Shown: positions 24,537 to 51,966 of the stretch, one piece after another
Layout: every line of letters starts with the position of its first letter
How positions within the stretch are numbered: position 1 is the stretch's first letter
Translations under genes and position numbers: made by a program
Notes under the pieces: model-generated
What the model was told of the DNA's origin: nothing
Database searches by the model: none
What the model saw: only the letters and a program-made list of their open reading frames with translations
NCBI RefSeq assembly: GCF_018100785.1
Contig: NZ_JAGJEC010000005.1
Coordinates: 62,001-126,000 of the forward strand
From: Maribacter sp. MMG018
GTDB lineage: Bacteria > Bacteroidota > Bacteroidia > Flavobacteriales > Flavobacteriaceae
DNA: 64,000 nucleotides
Direction: 5' to 3'

Positions 24537-27500
24537 ATGCTACATCACCTTAAAATAGAAAATTTTGCCACTCTTTCTGGAGTAACACAAGATATAGAAC
24601 TCTCCTATCAATTATTTGGGGCTCCATTGCATACGGCACCCATTATTTTGGTAAATCATGCTTTGACCGGAAACTCTAACGTTACTGGTGAAGGTGGTTG
24701 GTGGTCGGCCCTTATTGGAGATGAAAAGTGCATTGATACGAAGAAGTATACAGTGCTGTGCTTTAATATTCCGGGCAATGGTTATGATACGTTCGTAATT
24801 GAAAATTATAAAGATTTTGTTGCCGGTGATATGGCCCGTATTTTTCTTTTGGGCTTAGAGCAATTAAAGATAAAAAAGCTTTTTGCGATTATAGGTGGGT
24901 CTTTGGGCGGTGGTATTGCATGGGAAATGGCGGCATTAGATCCTAATTTAACAGAGCACTTGGTGCCAGTGGCATCTGATTGGAAATCTACTGATTGGCT
25001 TATCGCCAATTGCCAGATCCAAGAGCAGTTTTTGGTAAATTCCAAACAACCGGTTCATGATGCACGTATGCATGCCATGCTATGCTATCGTACCCCAGAA
25101 TCTTTTAAAGAGCGTTTTAAAAGAAGTACCAACGAAGAGCTTCAGGTGTTCAATGTAGAAAGTTGGTTAATGCACCATGGGGAAAAATTACAGGAGCGTT
25201 TTCAATTATCCGCTTATAAATTAATGAATCAGTTGTTGAAAACGATAGATGTTACCCGTAATGGAGACGAGAACTTTATCGATCTGCAAAATAGCGATAC
25301 CAATATTCATATTATCGGGGTAGACTCCGATCTGTTTTTTACGGCAAAGGAAAACAAGGACACCTTTAAGCAATTGGCGCAGGCCAATAGCAATGTAACC
25401 TATGGCGAAGTACAATCGCTACATGGGCATGATGCTTTTTTGATAGAATTTGAGCAAATGGAAAAATTGCTGCATTCGATCTTTAATACCAACGGAAAAT
25501 CTAGAAGGGTAAAGGTGTTGAAGTTCGGTGGTAAATCATTGAGCAATGGAGAGGGGTTAGAGCGTGTATTGGATGTAATTTCCTCCAAGGTAGAGTCTGG
25601 CGAAAACATTGCCGTGGTATTGTCGGCAAGGGAAAAAGCCACCGACCAATTGGAAAATATATTGGAAAAGGCGGCGAAAGGAGAACCTTATATGGATGAT
25701 TTTATAGCCTTGGAAAAGTATCAAAAACATACCTATGGCAATGTAAGTCTTTCCAAAGAGTTCAAGGCATTGGCAAAATTGTTCGAAGGAGTTTCGTTGC
25801 TTGGTGATTATAGTGCCAAGATAAAAGATGAGGTTATGGCCCATGGCGAACTGATTTCCGCAAAATTGGTTTCCAAATTATTGATAGGTAAAGGTGTAAA
25901 TGCCCATTTTATAGATTCAAGGGAATTGATCGTTACCGATGCCAATTTTGGCGACGCCAAAGTTCTGGAGCATATTTCGAAAGAGAAGGTGTTGTTAAGG
26001 TTTGCGGAGCTTCCACATGATGCCGTTCCCGTGATTACAGGTTTTATAGCGGCCACCGAAGACGGTGAGACCACTACTTTAGGTAGAAATGGAAGTAATT
26101 ATAGTGCAGCATTGCTGGCCAATTTTATAGATGCCGATGAATTACAGAACTATACCCATGTAGATGGCATATTTACGGCAAACCCCGATTATGTGGCAGA
26201 AGCGAAACGTATAGCCAACCTAAGTTATGCCGAGGCAAATGAAATGGCAAATTTTGGCGCTACCATTCTACATGCGAAAACCATTATTCCGTTAATAGAA
26301 AAGAATATTCCCTTACGTATTCTAAATACCTACAACGACGATAACGAGGGTACTTTGATCAGTGCCAAATCTAGCAAAGAAGGTATTAGGTCTATTTCTG
26401 TTATAGAGGATGTGGCCTTGATAAATTTAGAGGGCAGGGGGCTGTTGGGAAAAGTTGGTGTAGATGCGAGAATTTTTAAGACCCTAGAGGCAATTAATAT
26501 AAGTGTGAGCATTATTTCTCAAGGGTCGTCCGAAAGGGGAATTGGTTTAGTAGTAAACCGTGACAAGGCGGACAGGGCCAAAAAAGCCTTGGAAAACGAA
26601 TTTTCGAGCGATTTTAAGTCGCAAGACATCAATATGATCAAAGTAGTCGCCGATGTTTCTGTTATTTCTGTGGTAGGACAAGATTTGAGTACTTTTCATA
26701 AACCGTTCAATGCGCTTATAAAAAACCAGATCGTTCCGTTATTGTTCAACAATACGGTTTCTGGAAAGAATGTGAGTTTGGTCGTGAAGAAGTCAGATTT
26801 GACCAAGGCCATAAACGTAATGCACGGTCAGATTTTCGGAGTTAGTAAAAAGGTAAACTTGGCGGTTTTTGGACATGGGAATGTAGGCGGCACCCTGATC
26901 GATCAAGTTTTGGAATCCGCTCAGAGTATTGAACAGAGAAAAAGCATCGATCTACGTGTTTTTGCTATCGCCAATTCTAGAAAAGTGCTGTTGAGCGCTA
27001 ATGGAGTTGCCGGCAATTGGAGGACCGCAATAAAAGAAGAGGGACGGTCTTATTCTATTAAAGATATTATTGAATTTGCAAAAAACAATCACCTAGAAAA
27101 TTTGATCGTGGTAGATAACACGGCGAGTGAAGATTTTGTAGCACATTATTTTGATTTTGTAGAAAATGGTTTTGATGTGGTCTCTTCTAATAAGATAGCC
27201 AATACCCTTGGGTTCGATTATTACCAATTGTTGCGTGAAGAGTTGTCTAAACATCAAAAACAATATCTTTATGAGACCAATGTTGGTGCAGGGTTGCCAT
27301 TGATAGATACCATTAAGTTACTGCATTTATCAGGTGAGAACATAACCCGGATCAAAGGGGTGTTTTCTGGGTCGTTAAGTTATATTTTCAATACTTTTTC
27401 GGAAGGTAGCGCCACGTTTTCGTCTATTTTGAAAGACGCAAAACAACAAGGGTTTACCGAGCCAGATCCACGTGAAGACCTATCTGGTAACGATGTAGGG

Positions 27501-27923
27501 AGAAAACTGTTGATTTTGGCAAGAGAGTTGGATCTGAGCAATGAGTTTTCTGATATATCGATTCAAAATTTGATTCCGCCTACATTGCAAGAAGGAAGTA
27601 TTGAATCTTTTATGGGCAATCTAGAAGTATTGGATGAAAAATTCAATGAGATTAAACAGCGCCAAAAAGCGGATCATGTTTTAAGGTATGTAGGTGATTT
27701 GCACGGTGATCTGCAAAAAGAAAAAGGTATTTTAGAGGTGAAACTTATTTCCGTTCCCAAAGAAAGTGCCTTGGGGCAGGTAAAAGGTTCAGATTCCATT
27801 ATAGAAATATATACGGAGTCTTACGGGGAAAATCCTTTGGTCATTCAAGGTGCCGGAGCGGGTGCTGCGGTAACGGCCAGAGGCGTATTCGGTGATGTAT
27901 TAAGAATTGCAGAAAAAAGTTAG
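24537..27923 (+). CDS. Trifunctional fusion: homoserine O-acetyltransferase (MetX) - aspartokinase-like - homoserine dehydrogenase
   Basis: 1128 residues in one uninterrupted frame. Residues 1-320 are a MetX-type alpha/beta hydrolase with nucleophile Ser122 (IIGGSLGGG), Asp265 (GVDSDLFF) and His298 (HGHDAFL). Residues about 325-790 resemble the aspartokinase and ACT domains of ThrA; residues about 790-1128 are homoserine dehydrogenase (FGHGNVGG, NVGAGLP, TEPDPREDLSGNDVGRKLLILARE), which looks intact. The kinase part carries substitutions at conserved sites: KFGGTS reads KFGGKS, GSDYSA reads GSNYSA, TDVDG reads THVDG. It may therefore be catalytically weak or dead. The fusion would channel aspartate semialdehyde to homoserine to acetylhomoserine for metY and metZ on either side. 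Confidence 0.92.
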   Translation: MLHHLKIENFATLSGVTQDIELSYQLFGAPLHTAPIILVNHALTGNSNVTGEGGWWSALIGDEKCIDTKKYTVLCFNIPGNGYDTFVIENYKDFVAGDMARIFLLGLEQLKIKKLFAIIGGSLGGGIAWEMAALDPNLTEHLVPVASDWKSTDWLIANCQIQEQFLVNSKQPVHDARMHAMLCYRTPESFKERFKRSTNEELQVFNVESWLMHHGEKLQERFQLSAYKLMNQLLKTIDVTRNGDENFIDLQNSDTNIHIIGVDSDLFFTAKENKDTFKQLAQANSNVTYGEVQSLHGHDAFLIEFEQMEKLLHSIFNTNGKSRRVKVLKFGGKSLSNGEGLERVLDVISSKVESGENIAVVLSAREKATDQLENILEKAAKGEPYMDDFIALEKYQKHTYGNVSLSKEFKALAKLFEGVSLLGDYSAKIKDEVMAHGELISAKLVSKLLIGKGVNAHFIDSRELIVTDANFGDAKVLEHISKEKVLLRFAELPHDAVPVITGFIAATEDGETTTLGRNGSNYSAALLANFIDADELQNYTHVDGIFTANPDYVAEAKRIANLSYAEANEMANFGATILHAKTIIPLIEKNIPLRILNTYNDDNEGTLISAKSSKEGIRSISVIEDVALINLEGRGLLGKVGVDARIFKTLEAINISVSIISQGSSERGIGLVVNRDKADRAKKALENEFSSDFKSQDINMIKVVADVSVISVVGQDLSTFHKPFNALIKNQIVPLLFNNTVSGKNVSLVVKKSDLTKAINVMHGQIFGVSKKVNLAVFGHGNVGGTLIDQVLESAQSIEQRKSIDLRVFAIANSRKVLLSANGVAGNWRTAIKEEGRSYSIKDIIEFAKNNHLENLIVVDNTASEDFVAHYFDFVENGFDVVSSNKIANTLGFDYYQLLREELSKHQKQYLYETNVGAGLPLIDTIKLLHLSGENITRIKGVFSGSLSYIFNTFSEGSATFSSILKDAKQQGFTEPDPREDLSGNDVGRKLLILARELDLSNEFSDISIQNLIPPTLQEGSIESFMGNLEVLDEKFNEIKQRQKADHVLRYVGDLHGDLQKEKGILEVKLISVPKESALGQVKGSDSIIEIYTESYGENPLVIQGAGAGAAVTARGVFGDVLRIAEKS

Positions 27924-47888: not shown

Positions 47889-47896
47889 TACTTTAG
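47889..47896 (+). promoter_or_regulatory. Candidate -7 element of the phe leader transcript
   Basis: TACTTTAG, one mismatch to TAnnTTTG, 18 bases before the leader peptide ATG. It is the best-placed box, though the -33 region is only T-rich. Confidence 0.4.
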
Positions 47897-47913
47897 CCTA
47901 AGTTTTTGATATT

Positions 47914-47985
47914 ATGAGTAAGCAATATTTCTGGAACGGTTTCTATTTTTACTTCTTTTTTAAAAGAGGTACGGGACTGTTGTAG
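47914..47985 (+). CDS. Phe/Tyr-rich leader peptide of the aromatic operon attenuator
   Basis: A 23-codon frame, ATG at 47914 and TAG at 47983-47985. Residues 5-16 read YFWNGFYFYFFF; in all there are six Phe, three Tyr and one Trp among 23. The genes downstream make Phe and Tyr. The last codons (47971-47978, ACGGGACT) are also the first arm of an antiterminator that competes with the terminator at 48011-48033. A ribosome stalled at Phe/Tyr codons leaves that arm free; a ribosome reaching the TAG covers it. This is the logic of the enterobacterial pheL system. It is too short for usual gene finders. Confidence 0.88.
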   Translation: MSKQYFWNGFYFYFFFKRGTGLL

Positions 47986-48019
47986 TATATATTAACAATA
48001 TAAATTTATAAAGTCCCGT
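47971..48019 (+). promoter_or_regulatory. Antiterminator stem of the phe attenuator
   Basis: ACGGGACT at 47971-47978 is the exact complement of AGTCCCGT at 48012-48019, an 8-bp stem enclosing the leader stop codon. Its 3' arm is the same segment that forms the 5' arm of the terminator, so the two structures exclude each other. Confidence 0.82.
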
Positions 48020-48041
48020 TTTTCACGGGACTTTTTTTTTT
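48011..48041 (+). terminator. Attenuator terminator before the aromatic operon
   Basis: A perfect 9-bp stem AAGTCCCGT (48011-48019)/ACGGGACTT (48025-48033) with a 5-base loop, running into eight further T residues. It lies after the leader peptide and 12 bases before the first structural gene, so it can only act as a leader terminator. Confidence 0.92.
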
Positions 48042-48052
48042 AATTAAAAATT

Positions 48053-48880
48053 GTGCCAATAAAAGTTGCCATACAAGGAATAAAAGGTTCTAACCATCAT
48101 CAAGTAGCTAAAGATTATTTTGATGAAGAGTTCGAATTATTGGAGTGTCTTTCTTTTGATGCCGTTGTAGATCAATTGTTGCAGAAGAAAGCGGATAAGG
48201 GAATAATGGCCATAGAGAATTCCATAGCTGGATCTATCATCCCGAATTATGCACTGGTCTATCAAAATAACCTTCATATCATAGGAGAGCAATATTTGAA
48301 TATTCACCATAACCTTATGGTTTTGAAAGGTCAAAAGTTTGAGGACATAAAAGAGGTTAGTTCTCATCCAATGGCGCTTTTGCAGTGCAAGGAATTTTTT
48401 AAGGATTATCCCGATATACGATTGGTAGAAGATGTAGATACAGCAGAGACGGCGAAGCGGATTCAAGAACTAAAATTGGGGCATGTAGCCGCAATTGCGC
48501 CGAAGGTAGCTTCAGAATTATATGGGTTGGACATCGTAGCGGATAACATACAGACCATTAAAAATAATTCTACCCGTTTTATCATTGTAAAGACAAAGAA
48601 TAAAGAGATTCCTAAGGAAGAAATCAATAAGGCATCTGTACGCTTTATTACCGACCATAAACGCGGTAGTTTGGCCACAGTGCTTAATGTTATGAGTGAT
48701 TGTAATTTGAATTTAACCAAGATCCAGTCCCTTCCTGTTATTGAGACCCCTTGGAAATATGCTTTTTTTGTGGATGTAACTTTTGGTGTTTATAGTGATT
48801 TTGAAAAGGCTAAATCACTTTTGAATATCATGTTAGAGGATATAAAGATTTTAGGGGAATATAAAAATGCCATGCTATGA
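48053..48880 (+). CDS. pheA: Prephenate dehydratase
   Basis: Converts prephenate to phenylpyruvate. It is 275 residues with a GTG start at 48053. The N-terminal catalytic domain has QGIKGSNHHQVAKDYF, GIMAIENSIAGSIIPNYALV and the NNSTRFIIV (TRF) motif near residue 178. A C-terminal ACT domain follows (RFITDHKRGSLATVLNVMSDCNLNLTKIQSLPV). The ESRP Phe-binding motif of E. coli PheA reads QSLP here, so Phe feedback may differ. It lacks a chorismate mutase domain; that activity is at the far end of the operon. It overlaps the next gene by 4 bases. Confidence 0.95.
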   Translation: MPIKVAIQGIKGSNHHQVAKDYFDEEFELLECLSFDAVVDQLLQKKADKGIMAIENSIAGSIIPNYALVYQNNLHIIGEQYLNIHHNLMVLKGQKFEDIKEVSSHPMALLQCKEFFKDYPDIRLVEDVDTAETAKRIQELKLGHVAAIAPKVASELYGLDIVADNIQTIKNNSTRFIIVKTKNKEIPKEEINKASVRFITDHKRGSLATVLNVMSDCNLNLTKIQSLPVIETPWKYAFFVDVTFGVYSDFEKAKSLLNIMLEDIKILGEYKNAML

Positions 48881-50022
48881 TACAGACGGCAGAACGTTTA
48901 AAAACAGTACAGGAGTACTACTTTTCAAGAAAATTACGAGAGGTTCGGGGGTTGATCGCCGAAGGAAGACCGGTAATCAATATGGGGATCGGAAGTCCTG
49001 ATCTGGCTCCTTCTTCTAAAGTGATCGATGCCGTGCAGAATGCTATTTTAGAAGATGGCGCGCATCAGTACCAGAGCTATCAAGGCTTGCCGGAATTAAG
49101 AGCGGCCATCGCTTCTTTTTACAAGAATAGCTTTGGTGTACAAGCAGATCCTGCCACCGAAATTCTTCCGTTAATGGGATCAAAAGAAGGTATTATGCAT
49201 ATTAGCATGGCTTTCTTGGATAAAGGGGATGAGGTATTGGTGCCAAACCCAGGGTACCCGACCTACACATCGGTTACCAAACTAGTAGAGGCGGTACCGG
49301 TATATTATGACCTGAAAGAGGAAAATGGATGGTTTCCTGATTTGGAAGCGTTGGAGACAAAAGATTTGAGCAAAGTAAAAATAATGTGGGTTTGTTATCC
49401 ACACATGCCTACAGGGGCGTCCGCGACCAAAGAGCAATTTTCTCAACTGATCGCCTTTGCCAAAAGAAACGATATTCTTTTGGTGAATGATAACCCCTAT
49501 AGTTTTGTACTTAATAAGAATCCCCAAAGTATTTTGAAAATAGAGGGTGCAAAAGAAAATTGTTTGGAACTAAACTCGTTGAGCAAGACCTTTAATATGG
49601 CAGGTTGGCGTGTAGGTTTTGTTTTGGGCGGTCAAGAACATATAAACGCGATATTAAAAGTGAAAAGCAATATGGATTCCGGTATGTTTTACGGAATTCA
49701 GAAAGGGGCCATAGCGGCCTTGGAAAGCACTGGTGATTGGTACGATGATTTAAATGTAGTGTATAAAGAACGACGAAATTTGGTTTTTAAATTGGTGGAT
49801 AAATTAGGGTGTTCCTATGATTCGAGCGCTGTTGGAATGTTTGTTTGGGCAAAACTCCCAAATACGGTGTCATCCGCAGAAGATTTCATAGATGATATTT
49901 TATACGACAAGAACATTTTTATTACCCCGGGAACAATTTTTGGAAGTAATGGAGAAGGATATATTCGATTTTCCCTATGCGTTACAAAAGAAAAAATTCA
50001 AGAAGCAATAGATAGGTTTTAA
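48877..50022 (+). CDS. Class I/II aminotransferase of the aromatic operon
   Basis: A 381-residue PLP-dependent fold-type I aminotransferase. It has INMGIGSPDLAPSSKVIDAV, YQSYQGLPELRAAIASFY, the NPGYPTYTS segment, and the PLP Lys in NSLSKTFNMAGWRVGF (about residue 236). It resembles LL-diaminopimelate/aspartate-type enzymes. Between pheA and tyrA it probably transaminates phenylpyruvate and hydroxyphenylpyruvate to Phe and Tyr; specificity is inferred from context only. The start overlaps pheA (ATGA). Confidence 0.9.
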   Translation: MIQTAERLKTVQEYYFSRKLREVRGLIAEGRPVINMGIGSPDLAPSSKVIDAVQNAILEDGAHQYQSYQGLPELRAAIASFYKNSFGVQADPATEILPLMGSKEGIMHISMAFLDKGDEVLVPNPGYPTYTSVTKLVEAVPVYYDLKEENGWFPDLEALETKDLSKVKIMWVCYPHMPTGASATKEQFSQLIAFAKRNDILLVNDNPYSFVLNKNPQSILKIEGAKENCLELNSLSKTFNMAGWRVGFVLGGQEHINAILKVKSNMDSGMFYGIQKGAIAALESTGDWYDDLNVVYKERRNLVFKLVDKLGCSYDSSAVGMFVWAKLPNTVSSAEDFIDDILYDKNIFITPGTIFGSNGEGYIRFSLCVTKEKIQEAIDRF

Positions 50023-50023
50023 G

Positions 50024-50884
50024 ATGAACGTATTTGTAATAGGCATAGGTTTAATTGGAGGGTCCTTGGTGAAGGACATGAAAGAAAGAATACCGGATAT
50101 AACGGTGTATGGTATAGATACCAATTTGGAGCATTTGGAAGAGGCGTTGGCGCTAAATATAATAGATGAAAAATCTAGTTATGCAGATTTGGCATCTGCA
50201 GATTTTGTAATCGTAAGTGTACCGGTAAACGTAATGGTGACCGAGCTTCCGAAAATATTGGATGCCGTAAACGATGATTGTGTAGTGTGCGATGCAGGGT
50301 CGACCAAAGAGTTGATCTGCAATGTATTGTCCGATCATCCGAAGAGAAGAAATTTTTTGGCGTGCCACCCCATAGCGGGTACTGAGTTTTCTGGTCCGTC
50401 CGCGGCCATTAACGGTTTGTTCGAGGGTAAGACCAATATAATATGTGAAATAGAAAAAACCGCTTTTAAGTTGCAAGAAAGGGCATTGGAAGTTTTTCAG
50501 CTATTGGGTATGCGTATTCGGTACATGAACCCCAAGGCTCATGACAAGCACATAGCATATGTCTCTCATTTGTCACACATCAGTTCTTTTATGTTAGGAA
50601 AGACGGTAATCGAAAAAGAAAAAAATGAACGTGATATTTTTGACATGGCGGGCAGTGGATTTGAGAGTACGGTGAGGTTGGCAAAGAGTTCACCGGCCAT
50701 GTGGACACCTATTTTTGAACATAACAAAGAGAACGTAGTAGAAACACTTAATGAATACATTCAAAATCTAGCGGACTTTCGAGAATTGCTGATGGCAGAT
50801 GATTTTGAAGGTATTTACAATGAAATGAACAGTACAAATAAAATAAAATCAATATTAAAAGGAATACCACTAAATAAAAAGTAA
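50024..50884 (+). CDS. tyrA: Prephenate dehydrogenase
   Basis: Oxidatively decarboxylates prephenate to hydroxyphenylpyruvate for Tyr. It is 286 residues with the NAD-binding GIGLIGGSLVKDM at the N-terminus, VSVPVNV, CDAGSTKELI, ACHPIAGTEFSGPSAA (with the catalytic His), and AYVSHLSHISSFML. No ACT or chorismate mutase domain is attached. It starts 1 base after the aminotransferase stop, and its stop overlaps the next ATG by one base. Confidence 0.95.
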   Translation: MNVFVIGIGLIGGSLVKDMKERIPDITVYGIDTNLEHLEEALALNIIDEKSSYADLASADFVIVSVPVNVMVTELPKILDAVNDDCVVCDAGSTKELICNVLSDHPKRRNFLACHPIAGTEFSGPSAAINGLFEGKTNIICEIEKTAFKLQERALEVFQLLGMRIRYMNPKAHDKHIAYVSHLSHISSFMLGKTVIEKEKNERDIFDMAGSGFESTVRLAKSSPAMWTPIFEHNKENVVETLNEYIQNLADFRELLMADDFEGIYNEMNSTNKIKSILKGIPLNKK

Positions 50885-51966
50885 TGGAGAATAGTAAAGA
50901 AATGAGATCTTGGTTGGACGATATGGGGTTAGACCACCCTTTAGTAATAGCGGGTCCATGTAGTGCCGAAACAGAGGAGCAGGTTTTAAAGATTGCACAT
51001 GATTTAAAAGATACCGATGTAAATTATTACAGGGCCGGTATATGGAAACCAAGAACACGCCCCGGTAATTTTGAAGGGGTAGGGGCCTTAGGTTTAAAAT
51101 GGTTGCAAAGGGTAAAGGAAGAAACCGGACTAAAAACAGCGACAGAAGTAGCGAACAGGGCCCATGTAGAGTTGGCTTTGGAGTATGATGTTGATTTGCT
51201 TTGGATCGGGGCGCGTTCTACGGTGAGCCCTTTTATTATGCAAGAATTGGCAGATGCTTTGGAAGGCACCGATAAGATTGTTTTGGTAAAAAATCCTGTA
51301 AACCCGGATTTGGCATTGTGGTTGGGCGGTATAGAAAGACTGTACACCGCAGGAATAAAAAAATTAGGAGCTATCCATAGAGGATTTTCTACCTATGAGA
51401 AAACGAAGTACAGAAACATACCAGAATGGCAAATGGCGGTTGAGTTCCAAAATAGGTTCCCAGATTTACCATTGATCAATGACCCATCACATATCACAGG
51501 AAAGAGAGATATGATTTTTGATGTATCGCAGACTGCATTGGATCTGAACTTTGATGGTTTGATGATAGAAACACATCACGATCCCGATAATGCATGGAGT
51601 GATGCAGCACAACAGGTGACACCGTCAAAATTGGTTCAAATAATGAGAGATCTAAGAATCAGGAAAGAATCTGATCCCGAGGCTGAATACAACGCTGAAT
51701 TAAGTAACCTAAGAGCTCAGATAGATATGATCGACAATCAATTGATCGAGACTTTAGGTAAGAGAATGAAGATTTCCGATAGTATCGGTGCTCTTAAAAA
51801 ACAAAAAAATGTAGCCGTTTTACAATCCAATAGATGGAACCAGATTTTGGGGGCCATGATCTTAGAGGGAGAAAGTAAAGGACTTAGTGAAGAATTTGTC
51901 TTAAGAATGTTTAAGGCGATCCACCAAGAGTCGATCAACCACCAAGAGAAAATAGTGAACTCTTAG
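50884..51966 (+). CDS. Bifunctional DAHP synthase/chorismate mutase (type II, C-terminal)
   Basis: 360 residues. Residues 1-255 are a type I-beta DAHP synthase: VIAGPCSAETEEQVL, YRAGIWKPRTRPGNFEGVG, KTATEVAN, KNPVNPDLALWLGGIERL, INDPSHITGKRD and METHHDPDNAWSDAAQQVTP. Residues about 265-360 are an AroQ-type chorismate mutase (LRAQIDMIDNQLIETLGKRMKISDSIGALKKQKNV). It thus performs the first shikimate step and the first Phe/Tyr branch step. This C-terminal mutase fusion is known in Bacteroidota, where the mutase can act as the regulatory domain. It is the last gene of the attenuated operon. Confidence 0.96.
   Translation: MENSKEMRSWLDDMGLDHPLVIAGPCSAETEEQVLKIAHDLKDTDVNYYRAGIWKPRTRPGNFEGVGALGLKWLQRVKEETGLKTATEVANRAHVELALEYDVDLLWIGARSTVSPFIMQELADALEGTDKIVLVKNPVNPDLALWLGGIERLYTAGIKKLGAIHRGFSTYEKTKYRNIPEWQMAVEFQNRFPDLPLINDPSHITGKRDMIFDVSQTALDLNFDGLMIETHHDPDNAWSDAAQQVTPSKLVQIMRDLRIRKESDPEAEYNAELSNLRAQIDMIDNQLIETLGKRMKISDSIGALKKQKNVAVLQSNRWNQILGAMILEGESKGLSEEFVLRMFKAIHQESINHQEKIVNS

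Follow-up and report, generated by a model that had tools for sequence, protein, structure and literature searches.

A probable phenylalanine/tyrosine leader-peptide attenuator upstream of pheA in Maribacter and other Bacteroidota

Introduction

Does the short stretch of DNA ahead of pheA in Maribacter sp. MMG018 encode a transcription attenuator, in which a ribosome translating a leader peptide reports on the supply of aromatic amino acids? The question was raised by a first-pass annotation of 64,000 nucleotides of this genome (contig NZ_JAGJEC010000005.1, positions 62,001 to 126,000; the window hereafter), which read an aromatic-rich ORF and the hairpin that follows it in this way. The full architecture of trp and phe attenuators comprises three pairings between four RNA segments, 1:2, 2:3 and 3:4. 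A working ribosome-coupled attenuator without a Shine-Dalgarno sequence would, if true, be direct and testable evidence on the tightness of transcription-translation coupling in Bacteroidota.

Results

The locus and its operon

The features of the locus are collected in Table 1. The genes 3' of the leader had been annotated as pheA-aminotransferase-tyrA-DAHP synthase, an order that the profile matches confirm, with a chorismate mutase domain fused to the last product; the nearest named pheA relative found is that of Maribacter thermophilus (97% identity).

Table 1. Features of the pheA leader and operon (window positions)
Feature	Position	Strand	Remarks
Candidate -7 promoter element, TACTTTAG (TAnnTTxG type)	47889..47896	+	25 nt 5' of the leader ATG
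Leader peptide ORF, MSKQYFWNGFYFYFFFKRGTGLL-stop	47914..47985	+	23 codons plus TAG; no Shine-Dalgarno
Regulatory codons, residues 5-16, YFWNGFYFYFFF	47926..47961	+	10/12 aromatic
Segment 1, AACGGTTTC, codons Asn8-Gly9-Phe10	47935..47943	+	pairs with 47973-47981 (segment 2)
Segment 2, antiterminator 5' arm, ACGGGACT, within the ORF	47971..47978	+	stays complementary to segment 3
Small A+U hairpin just 3' of the stop codon	47988..48002	+	predicted fold; caps the predicted antiterminator
Segment 3, AAAGTCCCGT	48010..48019	+	antiterminator 3' arm and terminator 5' arm
Segment 4, terminator 3' arm, ACGGGACTTT	48025..48034	+	98.5% of cells paired across 75 sequences
T run of the intrinsic terminator, ten T	48032..48041	+	sequence
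pheA, prephenate dehydratase	48053..48880	+	PF00800, E 3.7e-57; GTG start at 48053
Class I/II aminotransferase	48877..50022	+	PF00155, E 7.7e-65
tyrA, prephenate dehydrogenase	50024..50884	+	NF006307 above its cut-off, 381.5 bits; PF02153
DAHP synthase fused to chorismate mutase	50884..51966	+	PF00793 and PF01817

The position and sequence of the leader, and the ten aromatic residues within its residues 5 to 16, hold as first annotated, and a stretch this rich in aromatic residues occurs a single time among the 71,548 twelve-residue pieces of the six-frame translation of the window. The mixture of Phe and Tyr codons that had been noted here is general: both residues are present in all 154 distinct leaders of the family (on average 6.1 Phe and 3.1 Tyr), and Trp is present in 108 of them. 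A Shine-Dalgarno-like tetramer precedes only 2 of the 154, the bases upstream being A-rich. A candidate promoter box of the form TAnnTT[TA]G (one mismatch allowed) lies upstream of every one of the 154 leaders and starts 25-27 nt before the ATG in 104; since this loose motif is also found somewhere in 1082 of 1540 shuffled upstream regions (70%), it is the constant position of the box that is informative.

Alternative folds of the leader RNA

The arm at 47971-47978 is fully complementary to 48012-48019 (AGTCCCGT), as the first-pass annotation had it; the predicted antiterminator is longer than the 8 bp then given, with an inner helix joining 47980-47985 to 48006-48011 and the A+U hairpin as a cap. 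Short inverted repeats resembling this hairpin are visible by eye in the alignment of relatives. The terminator had likewise been rightly called perfect and followed by a T run before pheA, and it measures 10 bp (48010-48019 with 48025-48034) rather than 9. Perfect 10-bp hairpins with at least five G/C pairs, followed by at least seven T in eight positions, number two in the window when both strands are searched. The second such hairpin is at about position 733 on the plus strand.

What had been missed is the 1:2 pairing (47935-47943 with 47973-47981), which would sequester segment 2 in an untranslated RNA and belongs to the minimum-energy fold of the whole leader. The leader RNA folds with z = -3.78, none of 200 dinucleotide shuffles being as stable, and the predicted energies are -17.9 kcal/mol for the 1:2 region and -14.1 kcal/mol for the terminator. 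The 2:3 antiterminator and the 3:4 terminator are mutually exclusive: when the RNA is free from 47966, the antiterminator is predicted to win at -19.9 kcal/mol despite the presence of segment 4, and when the RNA is free only from 47996, the terminator is predicted to form.

Conservation in the family

The first-pass annotation had proposed comparing the pheA upstream regions of relatives for the leader frame and its arms, and this comparison came out strongly in their favour. A related leader precedes pheA at 79 of 80 named loci, from Maribacter, Zobellia, Flagellimonas, Allomuricauda, Muricauda, Arenibacter, Cellulophaga and others, the sole exception (L106) lying on a contig that holds just 149 nt upstream of pheA; with 30 overlapping further loci added, the count becomes 109 of 110. 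A covariance model built from the named-relative sequences (R1) matches 200 of 249 family genomes and 167 of 202 genera, the 49 genomes that lack a match being counted under stricter filters and regardless of whether they hold pheA. Eighty weaker R1 matches, hand-chosen among those listed below the best 30, all lie upstream of pheA and carry an aromatic-rich ORF; their peptides are very diverse (for example MHYTYFNNWFYFFFSKRNEALYV and MSNLITWNAFYYFYFFYRDRIGSAV). The gaps of the alignment, whose rows are related to one another, fall as a translated frame would lead one to expect: gap runs are multiples of three in 445 of 627 cases within the ORF, as against 137 of 1140 in the downstream spacer.

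Pairing is conserved and covaries

For these statistics identical sequences of alignment A1 were collapsed to 75, and the 160 leaders of the swap test to 154 distinct ones. In the 75 sequences, 98.5% of terminator cells are paired and both sides have changed at four of the ten pairs, values that none of 500 shuffles reached; 29 of the 500 scored as high on further pair types. For the antiterminator, 90.7% of cells are paired and nine have changed on both sides (0/500 shuffles each), two of the five shuffle measures are unexceptional (334 and 210 of 500 shuffles as high), and 48 of the 75 sequences leave the outermost pair (columns 64/115) open. The antiterminator arm is nearly invariant in the named relatives, so the power of this comparison is low there.

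Across the 154 family leaders the best segment 2/3 stretches take 65 distinct forms, among them CGGGACT/AGTCCCG, CGAGAC/GTCTCG, CGGAACT/AGTTCCG, CCGGGATT/AGTCCCGG, ATCGGGA/TCCCGAT and CGAGACTTTCT/AGAAAGTCTCG. This list picks the best complementary stretch of each leader and is therefore illustrative; a few forms are doubtful, the best stretch being at most 5 bp in 5 of the 154. The test proper is the swapping of partners between leaders. Uncorrected for relatedness, none of 5000 permutations matched the leaders' own partners, for 2:3 and 1:2 alike. When relatedness was reduced by clustering the leaders at 80% identity (54 clusters), segments 2 and 3 paired with their own partners at -10.21 kcal/mol as against -7.96 with swapped ones (z = -8.4, 0/5000), and segments 1 and 2 likewise paired better with their own (z = -9.0, 0/5000). 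The windows of this first 1:2 test overlap in the shortest leaders; a repeat restricted to ORFs of at least 69 nt, with non-overlapping windows and 47 clusters, gave z = -8.8. As controls, these segments were paired with the spacer or with the region upstream; z was then -0.4, -2.2, -0.1 and +2.5, and the value of -2.2 means that part of the pairing signal may reflect relatedness. Pairings 1:2, 2:3 and 3:4 are all taken to be under selection.

A near-constant spacing

The stall and arm positions had been said to fit a ribosome-coupled mechanism, and the family agrees: the last aromatic codon begins 12-14 nt ahead of where segment 2 does in 132 of 152 leaders (2 of the 154 being omitted from the count). 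In leaders from the order and class, the gap is 10-17 nt in all 32 measured and 12-14 nt in 14 of them; this set includes 14 of the 17 pheA loci found with the second model described below (L250, L252 and L254 were left out). A gap of 12-14 nt is about the distance to the leading edge of a stalled ribosome, as given by the size of its footprint. A ribosome with the last aromatic codon in its A site would end about at the start of segment 2, so that the aromatic run reaches roughly as far as a ribosome could stall and still free this segment. With this spacing, a stalled ribosome would leave segment 2 free and a ribosome that has reached the stop codon would cover it, except in 4 of the 154 family leaders (L191, L197, L199 and L214), whose ORF ends 5' of segment 2. 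In these four the stop codon directly follows the aromatic run.

Occurrence beyond the family

In the order, 44 of 196 genomes match the second model, R2, and in the phylum 58 of 392, both searches using stricter filters. Of 20 retrieved loci, 17 adjoin pheA on its upstream side and 3 are unrelated terminators (L248, L260 and L261); both second matches in family genomes are plain terminators. All 13 matches listed in other orders of the class precede pheA, as do all 3 loci retrieved among the 5 matches listed in other families of the order and 1 of the 2 retrieved outside the class. This last locus (L254) has a leader and a terminator, but its best antiterminator arm is just 4 bp (GGGG/CCCC), which makes it unconvincing as a case beyond the class. 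The arm of L252 is also only 4 bp, and L250 has no leader that starts with ATG.

A model-free test, which looks for an aromatic-rich ORF starting with ATG and a terminator hairpin within the following 90 nt and does not require an antiterminator arm, was applied to a sample of the class. Among 149 genomes, 42 had a pheA match, and 33 upstream regions were taken (32 from other orders of the class, 1 from another family of the order), leaving out 4 genomes of the window's family, 4 already retrieved with R2 and 1 with a match of only 44 residues. The test is passed by 18 of the 33 regions and by none of the controls (0/505 window pieces, 0/33 reverse strands, 0/660 shuffles). Some of the 18 have weak antiterminator arms (for example L276, L282, L287 and L302), and 3 of the 15 that fail (L275, L289 and L292) are leader-like by eye. 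The four class genomes retrieved with R2 (L251, L255, L256 and L259) all have leaders. On these passes and failures, together with the R2 loci of the class, the element is judged from sequence to be widespread but not universal.

Other leaders in the same genome

Upstream of hisG (L265, minus strand), a His-rich ORF, MRNRTTHHHFHTHAQAR, lies about 100 nt before the gene and is followed by a terminator hairpin; it is likely a his attenuator. A Trp-rich leader with a terminator, MKTMKNTWWWNNLRQHS, precedes trpE (L270, 2017-2126, minus strand), and its region matches RF01692 at 56.6 bits against a cut-off of 49. The ilvD gene (L266) has an Ile/Leu/Val-rich ORF, MNKILINVVIIIPEQE, that stops 255 nt before it and is followed by a strong terminator, a candidate ilv attenuator. 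Of 566 window pieces, none passed the His test or the Trp test; the Ile/Leu/Val test passed 10 in its loose form and none in its strict form, which the ilvD leader just satisfies, the His, Trp and strict Ile/Leu/Val thresholds having been set after the leaders were seen. No Thr/Ile leader was found before thrA in this genome by a test that 1 of 566 controls passed. Taken together, the his, trp and candidate ilv leaders suggest that attenuation is probably a general device in this genome.

The window also holds an ORF of 1128 codons (24537-27923), the 3' part of which (27297-27902) matches homoserine dehydrogenase; it is perhaps a multi-domain fusion.

Discussion

On comparative evidence, we are highly confident that the pheA leader is a classical four-segment ribosome-mediated transcription attenuator of the pheA-aminotransferase-tyrA-DAHP synthase operon, which would sense charged tRNA-Phe and tRNA-Tyr. 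The reading draws together the ORF, three mutually exclusive pairings, their paired changes, the position before pheA and the near-constant spacing; the first-pass annotation had thus named the right kind of element, supported by conservation and pairing, while overlooking the 1:2 pairing, which completes the architecture. In the proposed mechanism, RNA polymerase would start near 47900 and a ribosome would initiate on the leader ORF without Shine-Dalgarno pairing. When Phe or Tyr is scarce, this ribosome would stall in the aromatic run (at about codons 10-16), where it would cover segment 1; segment 2 would then be free to pair with segment 3, and transcription would go on. When Phe and Tyr are both plentiful, the ribosome would reach the stop codon and cover segment 2, the 3:4 hairpin would form and transcription would stop. 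If the leader is not translated at all, 1:2 would hold segment 2 and the terminator would form too.

Which amino acids are sensed is a separate matter. The attenuator could work as proposed above but with Phe alone mattering and the Tyr and Trp codons passive: Phe codons outnumber Tyr codons two to one (6.1 vs 3.1 per leader), and the last three codons of the run are Phe in most named relatives. Against this, Tyr is found in all 154 leaders and tyrA is part of the operon, whose four genes predict joint sensing of Phe and Tyr, in contrast to the pheL leader of E. coli, which responds to Phe only; we find the Phe-only version rather unlikely and consider sensing of both amino acids likely. A different kind of control would be exerted by a nascent-chain arrest peptide, a conserved peptide that stalls its ribosome on binding free Phe or Tyr, in place of a codon-wise response to tRNA supply. 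The high conservation of the peptide inside the Maribacter/Flagellimonas group might be read in this way, but across the family the peptide varies freely in all but its aromatic richness (YFWNGFYFYFFF, FNNWFYFFFSKR, WNAFYYFYFFYR), and segments 1 and 2 account for the conserved Asn-Gly-Phe and Gly-Thr-Gly-Leu codons. If the ribosome arrested when the amino acid is abundant, the regulation would, moreover, be expected to run in reverse. We consider this mechanism very unlikely.

The pairing evidence by itself would fit any terminator/antiterminator switch, including one in which the choice between 2:3 and 3:4 falls to a protein or a small ligand and the ORF plays no part. Such a ribosome-independent switch leaves the codon content, the frame-preserving gaps and the 12-14 nt spacing unexplained, and no Rfam family reaches its gathering score at the locus; we regard it as extremely unlikely. 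A T-box riboswitch was also considered and rejected, no Rfam model of this kind matching the leader at E <= 1. As to chance, namely the terminator of the upstream gene beside a meaningless short ORF, three model matches elsewhere did prove to be mere terminators; this view is refuted by the recurrence of the arrangement before pheA in the family as well as in further orders of the class, by the absence of passes in three kinds of control and by the uniqueness of the 10-of-12 aromatic stretch in the window, and its probability is negligible.

If the leader is indeed an ancient Phe/Tyr attenuator common to several orders of the class, Bacteroidota ribosomes that start without a Shine-Dalgarno sequence would trail RNA polymerase closely enough to control termination, and the 12-14 nt gap would be an evolutionary gauge of the leading edge of the stalled ribosome. 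Adding the leaders that precede hisG, trpE and, as a candidate, ilvD in this genome, we lean towards the view that coupling is a general regulatory device of the phylum.

A 2004 study by Vitreschak et al. in FEMS Microbiol Lett reportedly mentions candidate attenuators in Bacteroidetes/Chlorobi. The present element may itself have been predicted earlier (Vitreschak et al. 2004; Lopatovskaya et al. 2010). A transcriptome paper on F. psychrophilum from 2021 describes a structured and conserved 5' element upstream of pheA, also present in other genera of Flavobacteriaceae, and reports 'strong clues' that leader-peptide attenuation acts on amino acid operons (PMC9723704). This is very probably the element of the window, so that its existence would have been in print since 2021, in a text whose passages on pheA give no leader sequence, arms, mechanism or covariation and do not say which amino acids are sensed or how far the element extends beyond the family (PMC9723704). 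Beyond that paper, no Phe leader attenuator of Bacteroidota was found described in the open-licence PMC literature. The 'pheA' motif of Weinberg et al. 2010, a candidate cis-regulatory RNA given there as doubtful as an RNA ('?'), shares the gene name and is listed under Actinobacteria (PMC2864571).

Among the families of Rfam, none reaches its gathering cut-off at the window element or at the divergent loci L181, L217, L245 and L263. A near counterpart is pheL, that is Phe_leader (RF01859), which is also a Phe leader peptide and which matches the window leader over the whole length of the model at 29.2 bits (E 0.028). This is a sub-threshold match; membership of the family was rejected against its gathering score of 55, and L254 reaches 34.2 bits. 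Phe_leader is a family of Gammaproteobacteria, and the peptide and arms of E. coli pheL are unlike those of the window's leader. In contrast to RF01859, leaders of the window's type combine Phe and Tyr (108 of 154 also contain Trp) and have no Shine-Dalgarno sequence, and the operon in the window additionally contains tyrA and DAHP synthase. The other relative in kind is the Bacteroidete tryptophan peptide leader, Bacteroid-trp (RF01692), which comes from the same phylum and follows the same leader-peptide logic, but differs in amino acid and in sequence; its model finds nothing in the pheA leader at E <= 1. The novelty in Flavobacteriia that the first-pass annotation had supposed is thus smaller: with a pheA 5' element in print (PMC9723704) and the Bacteroidetes trp leader known, and RF01692 present in the same genome, it is partial. 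Set beside these known systems, the element would extend Phe/Tyr leader-peptide control to a phylum for which the literature found gave no more than hints, and would add a covariation-supported RNA family that is seemingly missing from Rfam.
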